From Thermocaproicibacter melissae (GTDB lineage Bacteria > Bacillota > Clostridia > Oscillospirales > Acutalibacteraceae), in the NCBI RefSeq assembly GCF_024498295.1, contig NZ_CP101827.1:996001-1060000 (forward strand): a stretch of 64,000 bases of DNA, written 5' to 3'. The translations under genes were made by a program, and so were the position numbers. Shown piece by piece: positions 3,530 to 8,593 of this stretch; positions within the stretch are counted from its first letter, which is position 1; the number at the start of each line of letters is the position of its first letter. The notes beneath the pieces are model-generated. The model was not told where the DNA came from, did no database searches, and worked only from the letters and a program-made list of their open reading frames with translations.

Positions 3530-5008
3530 TTACAGGATAATGCAAATTAGTCCATTGCAGCCTTCGTTGATAATGCGCTCAATTGTTTCGCGCATTTTCT
3601 CACGCGCGTCGTCCGGCATGCGCGTCAGCTTGTTGTGCAGGCCGTCGTTTACAAGTTCATGCAAGCTCTTGCCGAAAATATTGGAATCCCAGATTTGCGT
3701 GGGGTTCGATTCAAACTCTTTCAGAATGTAATCGACCAGTTCCTGCGACTGCTGCTCAGAACCGACAATGGGTGTGATTTCCGTCGTGATGCGTGTTTTC
3801 AGCATATGGATAGACGGTGCGGCCGCCTTCAGCCGGATTCCGTATCTTCCGCCCTGCCGAATGATTTCAGGCTCGTCGAGCGTCAGTTCATCAATGCTCG
3901 GCATTACGATGCCGTAACCGGTCTCTTCTGCGTCGCGGTATGCTGCACCGATTTTGTCGTATGTCTTTTTCATTTCCGCCATTTGGAGCATGCAGTCCAT
4001 CAGGCTGCCTTCGTCCTTGATTTCAAGGCCGGTTTTCTCACCCAGCACCTTGTAGAACAAACCCGGCTGCAGCGTAATATTGATTCTCGCACGCCCGGTA
4101 CCGAGATCCATGGAAACCGTACGCGCTGCCGAAATATACTCGCAGGATGTAACGTTTGAGATAATGCCGTCTACATCGCGAATCTTGGAGACCTTCTCCG
4201 CGGATTGACGAATCGTTGAAAAGACGGAAGAGCGAAGCCAGTGCTCCTTTTCCAGCAGAGAAATCCAGTGCGGCATTTCGACTTTGATTTCGCGCACCGG
4301 GAATTCAAACAAAATCTTCGTGAGGATGTCTTCAATGTCTTTCTCCGACATCTCAAGGCAGTTGACGGCAAGCGTCGGCACGCCGTATTTCTGCTCCAGT
4401 GCTGCGGCCATCTCGATGGCATTCTGCGTTGTCGGGTCAACGCAGTTGAGCAAGACGATGAACGGCTTATTGATTTTCTTCAGCTCGTCAATGACGCGTT
4501 CCTCGGCCTCTTCATACTCGGCGCGCGGAATGTCGCTGATGCTGCCATCTGTCGTTACAACAAGGCCGATGGTGGAATGTTCGGTGATGACCTTTTTGGT
4601 TCCGATTTCCGCCGCCATGTTGAACGGAATCGGTTCCTTATACCACGGCGTCATCACCATGCGCGGGGTGTCGCCCTCTATGTAGCCGAGTGCGCTTGGA
4701 ACGATATAACCAACACAGTCAATCATCCGCACGGAAAAAGTTGCACTGTCGCCGATATGAACGGTAACGGCCTTTTCCGGAATGAATTTCGGCTCTGTTG
4801 TCATAATCGTCCGTCCGGCCGCGGACTGTGGCATTTCATCAATGGCGCGTTCCTTTGAATACTTGGAATCCATATTCGGCACAACAATGGTATCCATGAA
4901 GCGCTTGATGAAAGTCGATTTGCCGGTTCTAACTGGTCCGACGACCCCAATGTAAATATCTCCGTTTGTTCGCTCGGAAATATCCCGGTAGATATTGCGT
5001 TCTTCCAT
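3530..5008 (-). CDS. spoIVA: Stage IV sporulation protein A, coat basement-layer ATPase
   Basis: SpoIVA is the cytoskeleton-like ATPase that polymerises on the forespore outer membrane and anchors the spore coat. The 492-residue length is the family's usual size. An ATPase domain at the N terminus shows the P-loop GPVRTGKSTF (about residues 24-33) and a switch-like MIDCVGY. The C-terminal part ends in the hydrophobic CNGLICIIL, typical of the tail that contacts SpoVM and the membrane. ATG 5008 is preceded by a GGAGG-type site. It lies 63 bases downstream of the sipL-like gene on the same strand, so the two are probably one sporulation transcript. Confidence 0.97.
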   Translation of the reverse strand: MEERNIYRDISERTNGDIYIGVVGPVRTGKSTFIKRFMDTIVVPNMDSKYSKERAIDEMPQSAAGRTIMTTEPKFIPEKAVTVHIGDSATFSVRMIDCVGYIVPSALGYIEGDTPRMVMTPWYKEPIPFNMAAEIGTKKVITEHSTIGLVVTTDGSISDIPRAEYEEAEERVIDELKKINKPFIVLLNCVDPTTQNAIEMAAALEQKYGVPTLAVNCLEMSEKDIEDILTKILFEFPVREIKVEMPHWISLLEKEHWLRSSVFSTIRQSAEKVSKIRDVDGIISNVTSCEYISAARTVSMDLGTGRARINITLQPGLFYKVLGEKTGLEIKDEGSLMDCMLQMAEMKKTYDKIGAAYRDAEETGYGIVMPSIDELTLDEPEIIRQGGRYGIRLKAAAPSIHMLKTRITTEITPIVGSEQQSQELVDYILKEFESNPTQIWDSNIFGKSLHELVNDGLHNKLTRMPDDAREKMRETIERIINEGCNGLICIIL

Positions 5009-5071: not shown

Positions 5072-6604
5072 CTACATGGGTATCAGCAGCATCCCCCTGT
5101 TCTCAACAACATCGCCTGTTATTCCGTTTTCAGCGCATACCGAGGCCATGGAGGTGCGGTACTCGCGGGCAATGTCCCAGACGCTTTCACCTGCATCAGC
5201 AAAATAGAGGCAAAGGGAAGCGGTGGTGTCGCGTGCAACAGGTTTTGTTTCATCCGCCGTAACTGCCGTAACCGATTTGAAGGTAATGCGGCGCATAATT
5301 TCAGCACAAATGAAAATTTCGGTCTTCATTTCAATTCCGCTGCCGGAAATCCGGTAGCTGATTGCACCCGTCGTTACCTCAGGCTCGCACTTCAAATCTC
5401 CTTCTGCCGAGCAAGACATCTCATGCTCAAAATCAATCATTCGTTCAAAATAGATCGGTGCGTTCTGCTCGTTTCTCGCCAGCACGCACAGATTGTATTT
5501 GCCCTTCAGCTTCATTTTTCCTTCATCAAAGGAAGCTGTCGCGCTGGCCATTTCACTCCAGACATCAATTACTTTGGTAATGGTGGTACCTTCCTGCGTC
5601 AGTTCCGCCTTATGGTAGATGGTATCCTGCACCGACTCTGCAAAAGTTTCCATTGTCTTTTGCTTGGCATCAATGTTCATATCATAAGTGCGGGAAAATG
5701 CATCGTTGACCAGAACAATCTTCTTCTGGCGGTATGCCTTCGCCGTTGCGGAGATTTTCACCTGCGTATCAAAGAAGGTCTTATCGCCGGAGTAATCATT
5801 TTTAATCTGCGCATCCGCACTCACTACATCCATGCTAACAAAGCAGGAGCAGTCGTCCGTGACACCGTCGCAGTCCAACATTTGTGTAAACGGGAGCGTA
5901 TACTCCATCGTTTCCAGCTCGCCGTTTTCTTCCACCGTGCGGTAAAGGAACTTGACGTTTGCTTCGCCCTTTGTCATCAGTTTTCCTGCGGCAATCTTGC
6001 AGTCCTGCAAAACGACATACGCATCCGAGCGCACAATGGCATCGGCCGGCGGCTTTCCCTGTCCCAGCTCAAGGACTTCGTCGACACTGAACTGCTGCTG
6101 TGCGAAGCCGACCAGTTCGTAGGCTGTGGTCTGCAGTTTTTGCTGCTCAACATCGCTGCCGCAGATGTTGCTGACCATTTCACACTGACCGGTTGAAATG
6201 ACTTTTGCGCACAAAGAGAAGGAACCATGCACATTCAGGCGGCGTGGGCTGGAGGCGCGGCAGTTCACATACTCCACACGCGCAAAAGCCGAAACCATGG
6301 CATTTTCCGCCTGCTGTTTCAAGGCAATCTCTGCCGTATAGGAATCGTCACATTCGTGGCAACGGACGCACTTTCCCTCAGGGTCAAGATAGAAGATCTT
6401 CACGGTATAGCTTCCATCCAGCATCAGTCGGTCTCCCGTGATGCTTCGAGAGGAGATTTTCGGGTAGATCTGACACTTCAGGATTCGCTGGATGTCAGGG
6501 CAGTAATCCGGCAGATTGATATCTATATCAATCGGCTGCTCCTGACAGCCGTCGAATAAAATTTCACCGACGGCAATCCTTTCCCGCTCAAGCATATAAT
6601 CCAT
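5072..6604 (-). CDS. sipL: SipL-like spore coat morphogenetic protein (SPOCS/DUF3794 + LysM)
   Basis: A 510-residue protein. The N-terminal part carries DUF3794 (SPOCS) signatures such as DINLPDYCPDIQRIL (about residues 26-42), and more copies of that fold follow. The last 50 residues form a LysM module (GESVWDIAREY ... MLLIPM). This layout matches SipL of Clostridioides difficile, which binds SpoIVA through its LysM domain and is needed for coat attachment. Here the gene is immediately upstream of spoIVA, which strongly supports the same role. ATG 6604 sits behind AAAAGGAGAG. Many other clostridial DUF3794-LysM proteins exist, so the symbol rests on architecture plus context. Confidence 0.82.
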   Translation of the reverse strand: MDYMLERERIAVGEILFDGCQEQPIDIDINLPDYCPDIQRILKCQIYPKISSRSITGDRLMLDGSYTVKIFYLDPEGKCVRCHECDDSYTAEIALKQQAENAMVSAFARVEYVNCRASSPRRLNVHGSFSLCAKVISTGQCEMVSNICGSDVEQQKLQTTAYELVGFAQQQFSVDEVLELGQGKPPADAIVRSDAYVVLQDCKIAAGKLMTKGEANVKFLYRTVEENGELETMEYTLPFTQMLDCDGVTDDCSCFVSMDVVSADAQIKNDYSGDKTFFDTQVKISATAKAYRQKKIVLVNDAFSRTYDMNIDAKQKTMETFAESVQDTIYHKAELTQEGTTITKVIDVWSEMASATASFDEGKMKLKGKYNLCVLARNEQNAPIYFERMIDFEHEMSCSAEGDLKCEPEVTTGAISYRISGSGIEMKTEIFICAEIMRRITFKSVTAVTADETKPVARDTTASLCLYFADAGESVWDIAREYRTSMASVCAENGITGDVVENRGMLLIPM

Positions 6605-6634
6605 AAAGGTCTCTCCTTTTCCTGTTTCTAAGTA

Positions 6635-6663
6635 ATGGTATTCGGGACTCGTCTGTTTTATGC
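6635..6663 (-). promoter_or_regulatory. Candidate sigma-E promoter of sipL-spoIVA
   Basis: On the minus strand GCATAAA (6663-6657) and AATACCAT (6642-6635) are separated by 14 bases. They match the mother-cell sigma-E consensus (-35 KMATAWT, -10 CATACAAT-like) at most positions, with correct spacing and position upstream of sipL. No good sigma-A pair is seen here. This is a consensus match by eye. Confidence 0.5.
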
Positions 6664-6680
6664 TCAGTAGCCGAAAAAAA

Positions 6681-6712
6681 GGAGGACGGTTTCCAGAAAG
6701 AAACCGTCCTCC
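6681..6712 (-). terminator. Terminator ending the housekeeping-spoVM transcript
   Basis: GGAGGACGGTTTC pairs with GAAACCGTCCTCC around a six-base loop, and seven T follow on the minus strand. It lies 29 bases past the spoVM stop codon and separates that run from sipL-spoIVA. Confidence 0.92.
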
Positions 6713-6740
6713 CTTTGGGAAAAGGATTCATATGTTACGA

Positions 6741-6821
6741 TTACTGCTCTTTTTTTATGTTGAACATCTTGCGCAAAAGGAAAGCAAGGAATTTTGAACT
6801 CTTCACAACGACTACCTTCAT
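6741..6821 (-). CDS. spoVM: SpoVM, 26-residue spore coat anchor peptide
   Basis: ATG at 6821 is preceded by a perfect AGGAGGT seven bases away, and the frame stops with TAA after exactly 26 codons, the length of Bacillus subtilis SpoVM. The pattern MK....K..KFL....R.M....K is shared with SpoVM: here KSSKFLAFLLRKMF fills the amphipathic helix that recognises positive curvature on the forespore and recruits SpoIVA. Its place downstream of rsgA and thiN is the same as in B. subtilis. The first residues (VVVV) replace the usual FYTI. Probably expressed with the upstream genes and perhaps from an internal sporulation promoter; none is clear by eye. Confidence 0.9.
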   Translation of the reverse strand: MKVVVVKSSKFLAFLLRKMFNIKKEQ

Positions 6822-6843
6822 ACCGCTGACCTCCTAAATATGT

Positions 6844-7005
6844 TCAGCACCTTCTAAGAAGTGCAATGCCGACCGCTACCAAAAGGACTGAAAGGACGAA
6901 CATAACAAATCCCGGTGGGCAAAACCAGGACAGTGCCAGCCCAATGCCAAAAACAATACAGTAGCGTACCCATGAAGGCTTTCCATAGCTGCGGCTCTTC
7001 CACAT
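6844..7005 (-). CDS. Small hydrophobic membrane protein, unknown function
   Basis: A 53-residue frame beginning MWKSRSYGKPSW, followed by two hydrophobic stretches split by FCPPG and ending LLRRC. ATG 7005 is preferred because it follows GCGGGA; a TTG at 7050 would add 15 residues with no ribosome site. It sits between thiN and spoVM on the same strand with tight spacing, so it is probably co-transcribed. I do not recognise a named family. The place between thiN and spoVM hints at, but does not prove, a sporulation or envelope link. Confidence 0.65.
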   Translation of the reverse strand: MWKSRSYGKPSWVRYCIVFGIGLALSWFCPPGFVMFVLSVLLVAVGIALLRRC

Positions 7006-7076
7006 ATTCCCGCACCGCCCATCCGTTGTTTCTGTTACAGTATATAACAAACGGAGGAAATTGGTGCAAAGTAATT

Positions 7077-7712
7077 TTATTTCTGAACAATGATCAGCGC
7101 ATTGCCGCTGTGAACGGTAATCTGAGCAGTATCTTCCGTTATCTCATTGCTTACGCCGAGCGGAATCTCGGAAGAAAGGGTTGCATTCTCCAGCGGATAT
7201 TTCATTCCGATATAACTAACTTCACAAGCGGCACAGCCAAACGGGAACACGGAAAGGACCGCTCCCCGCATGCCGCTTATGGTGATTCTTCCTCCGCACA
7301 GAAGAAAAACACGGCGGCAGCCGTCTGAAATAAACGCTCGGCATCCCTGTGTGCAAAGGTATTGCAGGACGCAGAGATTGGCATACGAATGGTCAAAACG
7401 CTCTCCGCCGAGTGCCCCGTAAAGCTCGAAATCACGAAAACCGAGCCGAATTCCTTCCTTGACCGCCACAAAAAAGTCGGTATCATCTTTTTCCCGTTTG
7501 AGGCGTATGGTACGGATGCTTCTGGGAATCTCACTTTGCATAGAATCAAAATCCCCGACCAAAAGGTCAGGGACAACGCCGAATTTCACAAGAGTATCGT
7601 ACCCGCCGTCGGCACAGATAATAAACCTTTGGTTCCGGTCGAAATCGGAAAAGGGGTTTTCTGCGATTGGCGCGGCCCCGACTACAGCGCAGATTTTTCT
7701 TTCTTCTGCCAT
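7077..7712 (-). CDS. thiN: Thiamine pyrophosphokinase
   Basis: Transfers pyrophosphate from ATP to thiamine to make thiamine diphosphate. From ATG 7712 the protein has 211 residues, the usual size. Family motifs are visible: ICADGGYDTL, PDLLVGDFDSM with the metal-binding Asp residues, KDDTDFF, and ALGGERFDHSYANL. The start overlaps the end of rsgA by 31 bases and has GGAG upstream; a longer frame to 7880 would overlap rsgA much more and lacks support. The neighbours (rsgA, spoVM) are as in B. subtilis, except that rpe is missing between rsgA and thiN. Confidence 0.93.
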   Translation of the reverse strand: MAEERKICAVVGAAPIAENPFSDFDRNQRFIICADGGYDTLVKFGVVPDLLVGDFDSMQSEIPRSIRTIRLKREKDDTDFFVAVKEGIRLGFRDFELYGALGGERFDHSYANLCVLQYLCTQGCRAFISDGCRRVFLLCGGRITISGMRGAVLSVFPFGCAACEVSYIGMKYPLENATLSSEIPLGVSNEITEDTAQITVHSGNALIIVQK

Positions 7713-8593
7713 GATTTCTTTTCTTTCATCTCCTGATAAATTACACAATAACTTTCGTGGCGTGAGGAACTGATAACGCCTTCCTTCACCGCCGCGAGAA
7801 CCGCGCAGCCCTTCTCGCAGGTATGAGTGCAGGAAGTAAAACGGCACTGGTTCAGGTAGGGCCGGAACTCGCGGAAACACTCCGCAACATTATCCTTTGT
7901 AAGGGCACTGCTCATCTCGGAATCAAGGGCGGAAAAGCCGGGGGTGTCAATGACATATCCGCCTTCCGGCAGCTTCAGCAGTTCCACCTGCCGCGTGGTA
8001 TGGCGCCCGCGGCCGAGTTTTTGACTGATTTCCCCAGTCTGCAGATGGAATGTGCTAAACATTCTGTTGAGCAAGGTTGACTTGCCGACACCGGAATTTC
8101 CGGTAAAGGCGGTAATCTTCCCCGGAAGAATCGTTTCCAGCCCGTCGGTTCCATGAACCGGAGAGACATAAAAAAGCCGAATCCCGACTTTCCCGTATAT
8201 TTCGGAAAGTCCATCGGCGCTTTGAAGGTCTATCTTTGAAATCGCCAAAACTGGCTCAATGCCAGCTGCCTCCGCCTCGGCAATCAGGCGGTCAATTACG
8301 AGCGTATTCGGGGACGGTTCACAGGTGGAAACAACAATCACCAAGCAGTCTATGTTCGCAACGGGGGGACGCGCAAGGCAATTTTTCCGCGGCAAAATCT
8401 CTTCCACAAAACCGGTTTTGTCAGACGAAACACGAATCTTCACGCGGTCACCGGCCAAAGGAGTCATTCCCTTTTTGCGGAAAACGCCGCGTGCACGGCA
8501 CTCAATAACCCCATCGGAGGTTTCTACATAGTAGAAACCTCCGATTCCCTTTAATATTAACCCTTCAGAATAGTCTTTCATGTTTTCGGCCAT
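7682..8593 (-). CDS. rsgA: Ribosome small-subunit GTPase RsgA (YloQ/CpgA)
   Basis: A GTPase that helps the last steps of 30S subunit maturation. The 303-residue protein has an N-terminal OB fold, then the circularly permuted G motifs that define the family: SKIDL (G4) comes before GNSGVGKSTLLN (G1) and DTPG (G3). A C-terminal zinc finger is formed by CRFTSCTHTCEKGC. It starts three bases after the prkC stop, and no strong ribosome site is seen, so translation is probably coupled. In related bacteria CpgA is phosphorylated by PrkC, which fits the linkage here. Confidence 0.96.
   Translation of the reverse strand: MAENMKDYSEGLILKGIGGFYYVETSDGVIECRARGVFRKKGMTPLAGDRVKIRVSSDKTGFVEEILPRKNCLARPPVANIDCLVIVVSTCEPSPNTLVIDRLIAEAEAAGIEPVLAISKIDLQSADGLSEIYGKVGIRLFYVSPVHGTDGLETILPGKITAFTGNSGVGKSTLLNRMFSTFHLQTGEISQKLGRGRHTTRQVELLKLPEGGYVIDTPGFSALDSEMSSALTKDNVAECFREFRPYLNQCRFTSCTHTCEKGCAVLAAVKEGVISSSRHESYCVIYQEMKEKKSWQKKEKSAL

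Follow-up and report, generated by a model that had tools for sequence, protein, structure and literature searches.

SpoVM is a leading example of a tiny protein localised by membrane shape, and the model leans on Pro9, which the legend to Fig. 1 of PMC5607322 gives as the sole fully conserved SpoVM residue and as essential for recognising positively curved membrane; the same legend names Lys2, Ile6 and Ile15 as required in B. subtilis. Passages of that paper also describe a 50-codon gene of C. difficile, CD25622, which lies directly upstream of spoVM and is cotranscribed with it, and whose disruption (likely polar on spoVM) caused a heat-resistance defect essentially as for disruption of spoVM; CD25622 is described there as unique to, or primarily conserved in, the Peptostreptococcaceae. 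In the portion of PMC3533761 that deals with spoVM, the gene is said to be 'rarely recognized in genome annotation', 70 are listed for it in a table of missed ORFs (Table 2), and the question is raised whether genomes in which standard searches found nothing might have a divergent SpoVM.

The window, a stretch of 64,000 nucleotides from Thermocaproicibacter melissae, carries on its minus strand the order rsgA, thiN, a 53-codon gene for a small membrane hairpin (hereafter the partner gene), spoVM, a hairpin, sipL and spoIVA. The flanking genes were assigned by model matches: rsgA (7682-8593) scored 208 bits with TIGR00157; thiN, for thiamine diphosphokinase (7077-7712), scored 143.5 bits with TIGR01378 over residues 64-264 of a longer ORF (7077-7880), its start being placed by that domain match; sipL (5072-6604) scored 114 bits with the SipL/SPOCS domain PF12673 (cut-off 23.6) and has a weak C-terminal LysM of 16.2 bits, under the cut-off of 20.9; and spoIVA (3530-5008) scored 738 bits with TIGR02836 over 1-492/492, a full-length protein of 492 aa. 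The hairpin 3' of spoVM (6677-6716, minus strand) resembles an intrinsic terminator, with 18 pairs and a 3' side that runs into a T run, and its RNA fold of -29.8 kcal/mol (z -6.4) was equalled by 0 of 200 shuffles. From spoVM (6821) through the end of spoIVA (3530) is 3,292 bp, all on the minus strand, which bears out the claim of the earlier note that the SpoVM-SpoIVA-SipL set is complete in a compact locus of 3.3 kb. That note also placed spoVM after rsgA-thiN as in B. subtilis; the neighbourhood stands, but thiN is not adjacent, because the partner gene (6844-7005) intervenes. Among 118 loci of the window's family with flanks of about 3 kb, searched for matches to the proteins of the window, sipL lay within 1.5 kb 3' of spoVM in at least 34, and sipL together with spoIVA in at least 25, both counts being lower bounds; by this measure, the compact spoVM-sipL-spoIVA cluster is common to part of the family.

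The spoVM frame itself occupies 6741-6821 on the minus strand, a strand that the earlier note had not given when it reported the ribosome site, ATG and 26 codons that are indeed present: AGGAGGT lies at 6829-6835 (minus strand), 7 nt 5' of the ATG at 6821, and the frame encodes MKVVVVKSSKFLAFLLRKMFNIKKEQ, with the stop TAA. The frame matched NCBIfam NF033436 with 37.3 bits (E 1.9e-9; curated cut-off 31), residues 1-25 aligning with positions 1-25 of the 26 in the model, and it was the sole match over the cut-off in the whole 1.96 Mb genome, where the runner-up reached 11.4 bits. A model built from 82 Pro9-bearing SpoVMs from outside the window's family (81 together with that of B. subtilis) gave the frame 18.0 bits, as against a maximum of 11.4 in 20 dinucleotide-shuffled windows; a Pfam search of the protein returned zero matches at E <= 1. 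The protein has the marks of the SpoVM family, namely about 26 residues, rsgA/thiN as neighbours and a genome with SpoIVA and Spo0A, and both model comparisons uphold the identity first proposed for it. The attached claim that gene callers would miss the gene agrees with the poor annotation of spoVM, which is already known from that portion of PMC3533761 and not new, and is overstated in that the current NCBI model detects the window copy. The frame is a genuine spoVM, as its sequence shows through the family-model match, the place, the ribosome site and, in close relatives that lack Pro9, a conservation that holds chiefly for amino acids; it is an ordinary gene in an ordinary place. What is out of the ordinary at the locus is the missing Pro9 and a conserved, nameless neighbour; the earlier note, right as to identity and position, had overlooked both.

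Compared with SpoVM of B. subtilis, the window protein has the same length of 26 aa, the same Lys2, Lys7, Lys10-Phe11-Leu12, Arg17 and Met19, and the same rsgA/thiN neighbourhood; however, it is 31% identical, with Ser9 for Pro9, Val6 for Ile6, Leu15 for Ile15 and VVVV for FYTI, and its gene is followed by sipL and spoIVA, unlike in B. subtilis. Of the residues required in B. subtilis, Lys2 is kept, and Val at 6 and Leu at 15 are both conservative. The VVVV start had been called unusual, and this was rejected once the family was sampled: 158 of 200 genomes matched the SpoVM model, and in the 149 SpoVMs examined, the best 149 of 158, V, I or L stood at all of positions 3-5 in 136, exact VVVV in 41 and F3-Y4 in 0. 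Pro9-bearing family members such as MKVVLVKSPKFLSGILRMIFKIKKENV (L003) share with the window protein the VVVV-type arm, the IKKE-type end and the upstream partner gene, but differ from it at Ser9.

The Ser9 of the window protein is encoded by TCA, and the whole protein contains zero prolines. Across the best 149 of 158 family SpoVMs, position 9 is Pro in 139 and something else in 10 (Ser in 8, Thr in 1 and Asn in 1), and since NF033436 probably favours Pro9, the true share of Pro9 is likely no higher than this. Five further family members, found by a search with the window sequence, carry S, S, H, T and K. The class-wide SpoVM-model search matched 130 genomes, and in the part of it examined outside the family (92 loci, 85 after removing repeats) Pro9 was found in 84 of the 85 distinct loci and Ser in 1; nine extra non-family loci from the window-sequence search comprised 3 with Pro9, 4 with Pro8 and Ser9 or Gly9, and 2 with Ala8-Ser9. 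The idea that Ser9 is private to the window genome was thus rejected, as other members inside and outside the family have it too. When sequences with no proline anywhere at 7-13 are counted, the substitutes are S (8), T (1) and N (1) in the family sample, S (2), T (1), H (1) and K (1) in the five extra members, and S (3) outside the family. Leu9 was absent among all Pro9-less sequences examined, even though one C-to-T change suffices to turn CCN into a Leu codon (CTN), just as it does into a Ser codon (TCN). A shift of the proline to a neighbouring position is real in some other clostridia, where Pro8 is followed by Ser, Gly or Lys (L240, L242, L244, L253, L382, L387, L390 and L395), and is rejected for the proline-free window SpoVM.

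On a SpoIVA tree of 37 rows, at least 7 changes between Pro and non-Pro were counted, a figure valid only for that set, which was picked to include many non-Pro rows, and silent on which of the changes are losses (Pro8 rows were scored as non-Pro, and G112, with a split SpoIVA, was omitted). Two same-genus pairs on this tree differ at position 9, G193 (S) with G086 (P) and G025 (S) with G152 (P), as do the sisters G028 (T) and G035 (P). The SpoIVA C-termini looked alike by eye in Pro and non-Pro rows, with no change seen accompanying Ser9. Within SpoVM, Phe14 occurs in 9 of the 10 Pro9-less and 36 of the 139 Pro9 family proteins (best 149 of 158; uncorrected for relatedness). The same-genus genome G103 also has Ser9 (L113), in a SpoVM that ends after 23 residues with the KEQ tail gone. 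A narrow search of the open-licence literature, covering titles and the starts of abstracts, found no report of a Pro9-less SpoVM.

The partner gene occupies 6844-7005 on the minus strand, or 6844-7050 in a longer reading from TTG. Like CD25622 in C. difficile, it is a small gene directly upstream of spoVM, with 53 codons in the window; the agreement is one of position and size only, and a literature search for CD25622 returned PMC5607322 alone. An AlphaFold2 model of modest confidence (mean pLDDT 73.7, pTM 0.39) places helices at residues 11-28 and 32-52, and the usual pattern among relatives is a basic or Cys-rich start followed by AFGxGL...P...L.LG. Of the 149 family loci (best 149 of 158), 135 have a hydrophobic ORF, 40-75 codons long, whose end falls no more than 130 nt before spoVM or 20 nt into it. 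Neither Pfam nor NCBIfam gave a convincing match to any of 22 members, the best E values being 0.0027 and 0.014, respectively. A hint of DUF6249 (9 of the 22 at E <= 1, best 0.0032) was not accepted as an identity, the window copy reaching E 0.054 and 13.9 bits where the cut-off is 33. The narrow search of titles and abstract starts likewise found no account of small proteins encoded upstream of spoVM as a family. On ORF scans and model scores, a small membrane-protein gene recurs beside spoVM in many clostridia and is nameless in the Pfam and NCBIfam searches.

Recurrence outside the family was measured with a partner model trained on the family alone. Across 94 distinct non-family spoVM loci, the top-scoring ORF was the one directly upstream in 49 (10.0 expected), and 30 of the 94 upstream ORFs reached 12 bits or more, as against 0 of 2,310 other ORFs. 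In the reverse test, 130 of the 149 family loci (best 149 of 158) had a member just ahead of spoVM, and 3 of 11,628 other ORFs scored as high; this test is not independent, because the rows that trained its model came out of an iterated search that had started from the family. After iteration, a member was found in 230 of 291 loci, repeats included. One locus, L084, has no partner directly upstream of its SpoVM match and a partner-like ORF (38 bits) elsewhere. Class-wide, 147 of 391 genomes had matches at E <= 0.01, the weakest of them partly false because some sit in long frames. Twenty of these loci, selected for matching the partner model, were chosen in genomes with no NF033436 match at E <= 0.01; in 13 of them a SpoVM-like ORF lay directly downstream. 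With the non-family SpoVM model these ORFs scored between 6.2 and 45.4 bits, 6.2 and 12.0 being the two lowest values. The partner gene thus led to SpoVM-like genes missed by the curated model at that threshold. The other 7, all of the group f25, had no downstream ORF above 2.4 bits with the same model. Sixteen f25 genomes, selected for matching the partner model, had thiN in 15 loci, an opposite-strand L28-like ORF in 12 and no SpoVM-model score above 6.2 bits anywhere in these loci; the hairpin gene thus persists in f25 (L379-L381, L383, L384, L388, L389 and L396-L411) where spoVM is absent or unrecognisable.

The window SpoVM is probably functional, with Ser9 standing in for the helix break of Pro9, and probably the product of a two-gene unit. 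During sporulation, the mother cell would transcribe partner gene and spoVM as a short unit with a promoter of its own, starting downstream of thiN and ending at the hairpin after spoVM; SpoVM, an amphipathic helix lying on the surface of the forespore, would recruit SpoIVA, which would bind SipL, the product of the adjacent gene. The break supplied by Pro9 in B. subtilis would be supplied here by Ser9, and elsewhere by Thr or Asn, as a helix N-cap, following a beta-branched VVVV arm that should be a poor helix former, so that the helix would start as it does after Pro9. A flexible N-terminus and a preference for curvature could thereby persist without proline, and the window SpoVM may still act as a curvature sensor; with Ser9 and no proline, it is not classed under the Pro9-dependent mechanism. 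The upstream hairpin protein is probably active at the same membrane, its role being a guess.

Ser, Thr and Asn serve well as helix N-caps, and the His and Lys found at position 9 in G134 and G031 fit N-capping poorly and count against this part of the scheme. On a crude propensity scale, the helix cost of residues 3-9 is 0.53 for the window protein, between 0.82 for B. subtilis wild type and 0.37 for P9A; a break by Ser9 is therefore plausible and may be weaker. The two-gene unit is supported by a promoter-like block and the hairpin that bracket the partner gene and spoVM. The former, ACC ... TATACT (7039-7065, minus strand), lies between thiN and the partner gene and may resemble the consensus of a mother-cell sigma factor. 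In 69 distinct partner loci, the three bases 21 to 19 before TATAC[TA] are A or C in 85-94%; only the spacing of this A/C block counts as a result, the loci having been chosen for TATAC[TA] upstream of the partner gene. Counts of sigma-70 promoter and terminator patterns near the locus were not above shuffles (4 vs 5.2 and 9 vs 6.8), and that scan, limited to promoters of the sigma-70 type, listed neither this element nor the long hairpin.

Among close S9 genes, amino acids are held while synonymous sites vary, the synonymous and changed codons numbering 7/3 between the window and G103, 8/1 for L034/L128, 9/1 for L035/L036 and 7/0 for L035/L233; weaker comparisons gave 9/6 (L125/L149), 11/9 (L237/L239), 10/4 (window/L034) and 10/5 (window/L035), and the S9/P9 sister pair L117/L118 gave 3/3. 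This pattern speaks against a reading of relaxed constraint, in which SpoVM is of little importance in clostridia, Pro9 was for that reason simply lost, and the S9 protein is a weak membrane tether for SpoIVA without curvature sensing; so do the substitutions in the family sample (best 149 of 158), which form a narrow set (S, T, N) and not a scatter, and the retention of Pro9 by 139 of its 149 members. It is a reading that we lean against but take seriously, because passages of PMC5607322 lend it weight: in C. difficile, the heat-resistance defect of spoVM mutants does not exceed about 3- to 4-fold, and SpoIVA mostly surrounds the forespore even when SpoVM is missing; Clostridia, moreover, lack CmpA, which in B. 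subtilis belongs to the checkpoint by which such mutants are eliminated. In Caproicibacter fermentans, a named S9 relative, spores went unobserved despite sporulation genes, according to the relevant part of PMC7873966.

Those unobserved spores, together with the small genome of 1.96 Mb and the 23-codon copy in G103, would also fit a remnant gene in a lineage losing sporulation, which is improbable in view of the full-length SpoIVA, the SipL, the Spo0A and the GPR of the window genome and of the synonymous bias of change between close pairs. More broadly, Spo0A and SpoIVA were found in 30 of 30 chosen genomes, the window genome included, and GPR in 27, the exceptions being the Pro9-less G189 and G134 and the Pro9 genome G075. 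That the frame is no gene at all and arose by chance behind a good ribosome site, as its mere 26 codons might suggest, is scarcely credible given the curated-model match, its uniqueness in the genome, the shuffles and the relatives that conserve the gene at the same place, and was dropped.

The preferred reading, a functional SpoVM with a Ser9 break in a two-gene unit, can be extended to a broader scheme that is possible but, on balance, doubtful: geometry sensing by SpoVM would rest on the helix break, with proline only one way to make it; several lineages would use an N-cap residue for Pro9; and clostridia would have a two-gene unit of a membrane hairpin of about 50 residues and SpoVM, in which the hairpin is sometimes more persistent and possibly aids SpoVM. 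Natural Pro9-less SpoVMs in several lineages permit a direct test of whether the proline itself or the helix break matters, and the upstream hairpin gene is a candidate for a second basement-layer protein. A sequence upstream of sipL (6605-6740, minus strand), CATAAA-N14-AATACCAT, looks by eye like a sigma-E type promoter. In a scan of named records with the window SpoIVA, the nearest were the MAG UBA4883 (80%) and Caproicibacter fermentans (79%), a scan in which the window genome itself and its closest kin may have been passed over, and the SpoIVA of the same-genus genome G103 stands at 91%.
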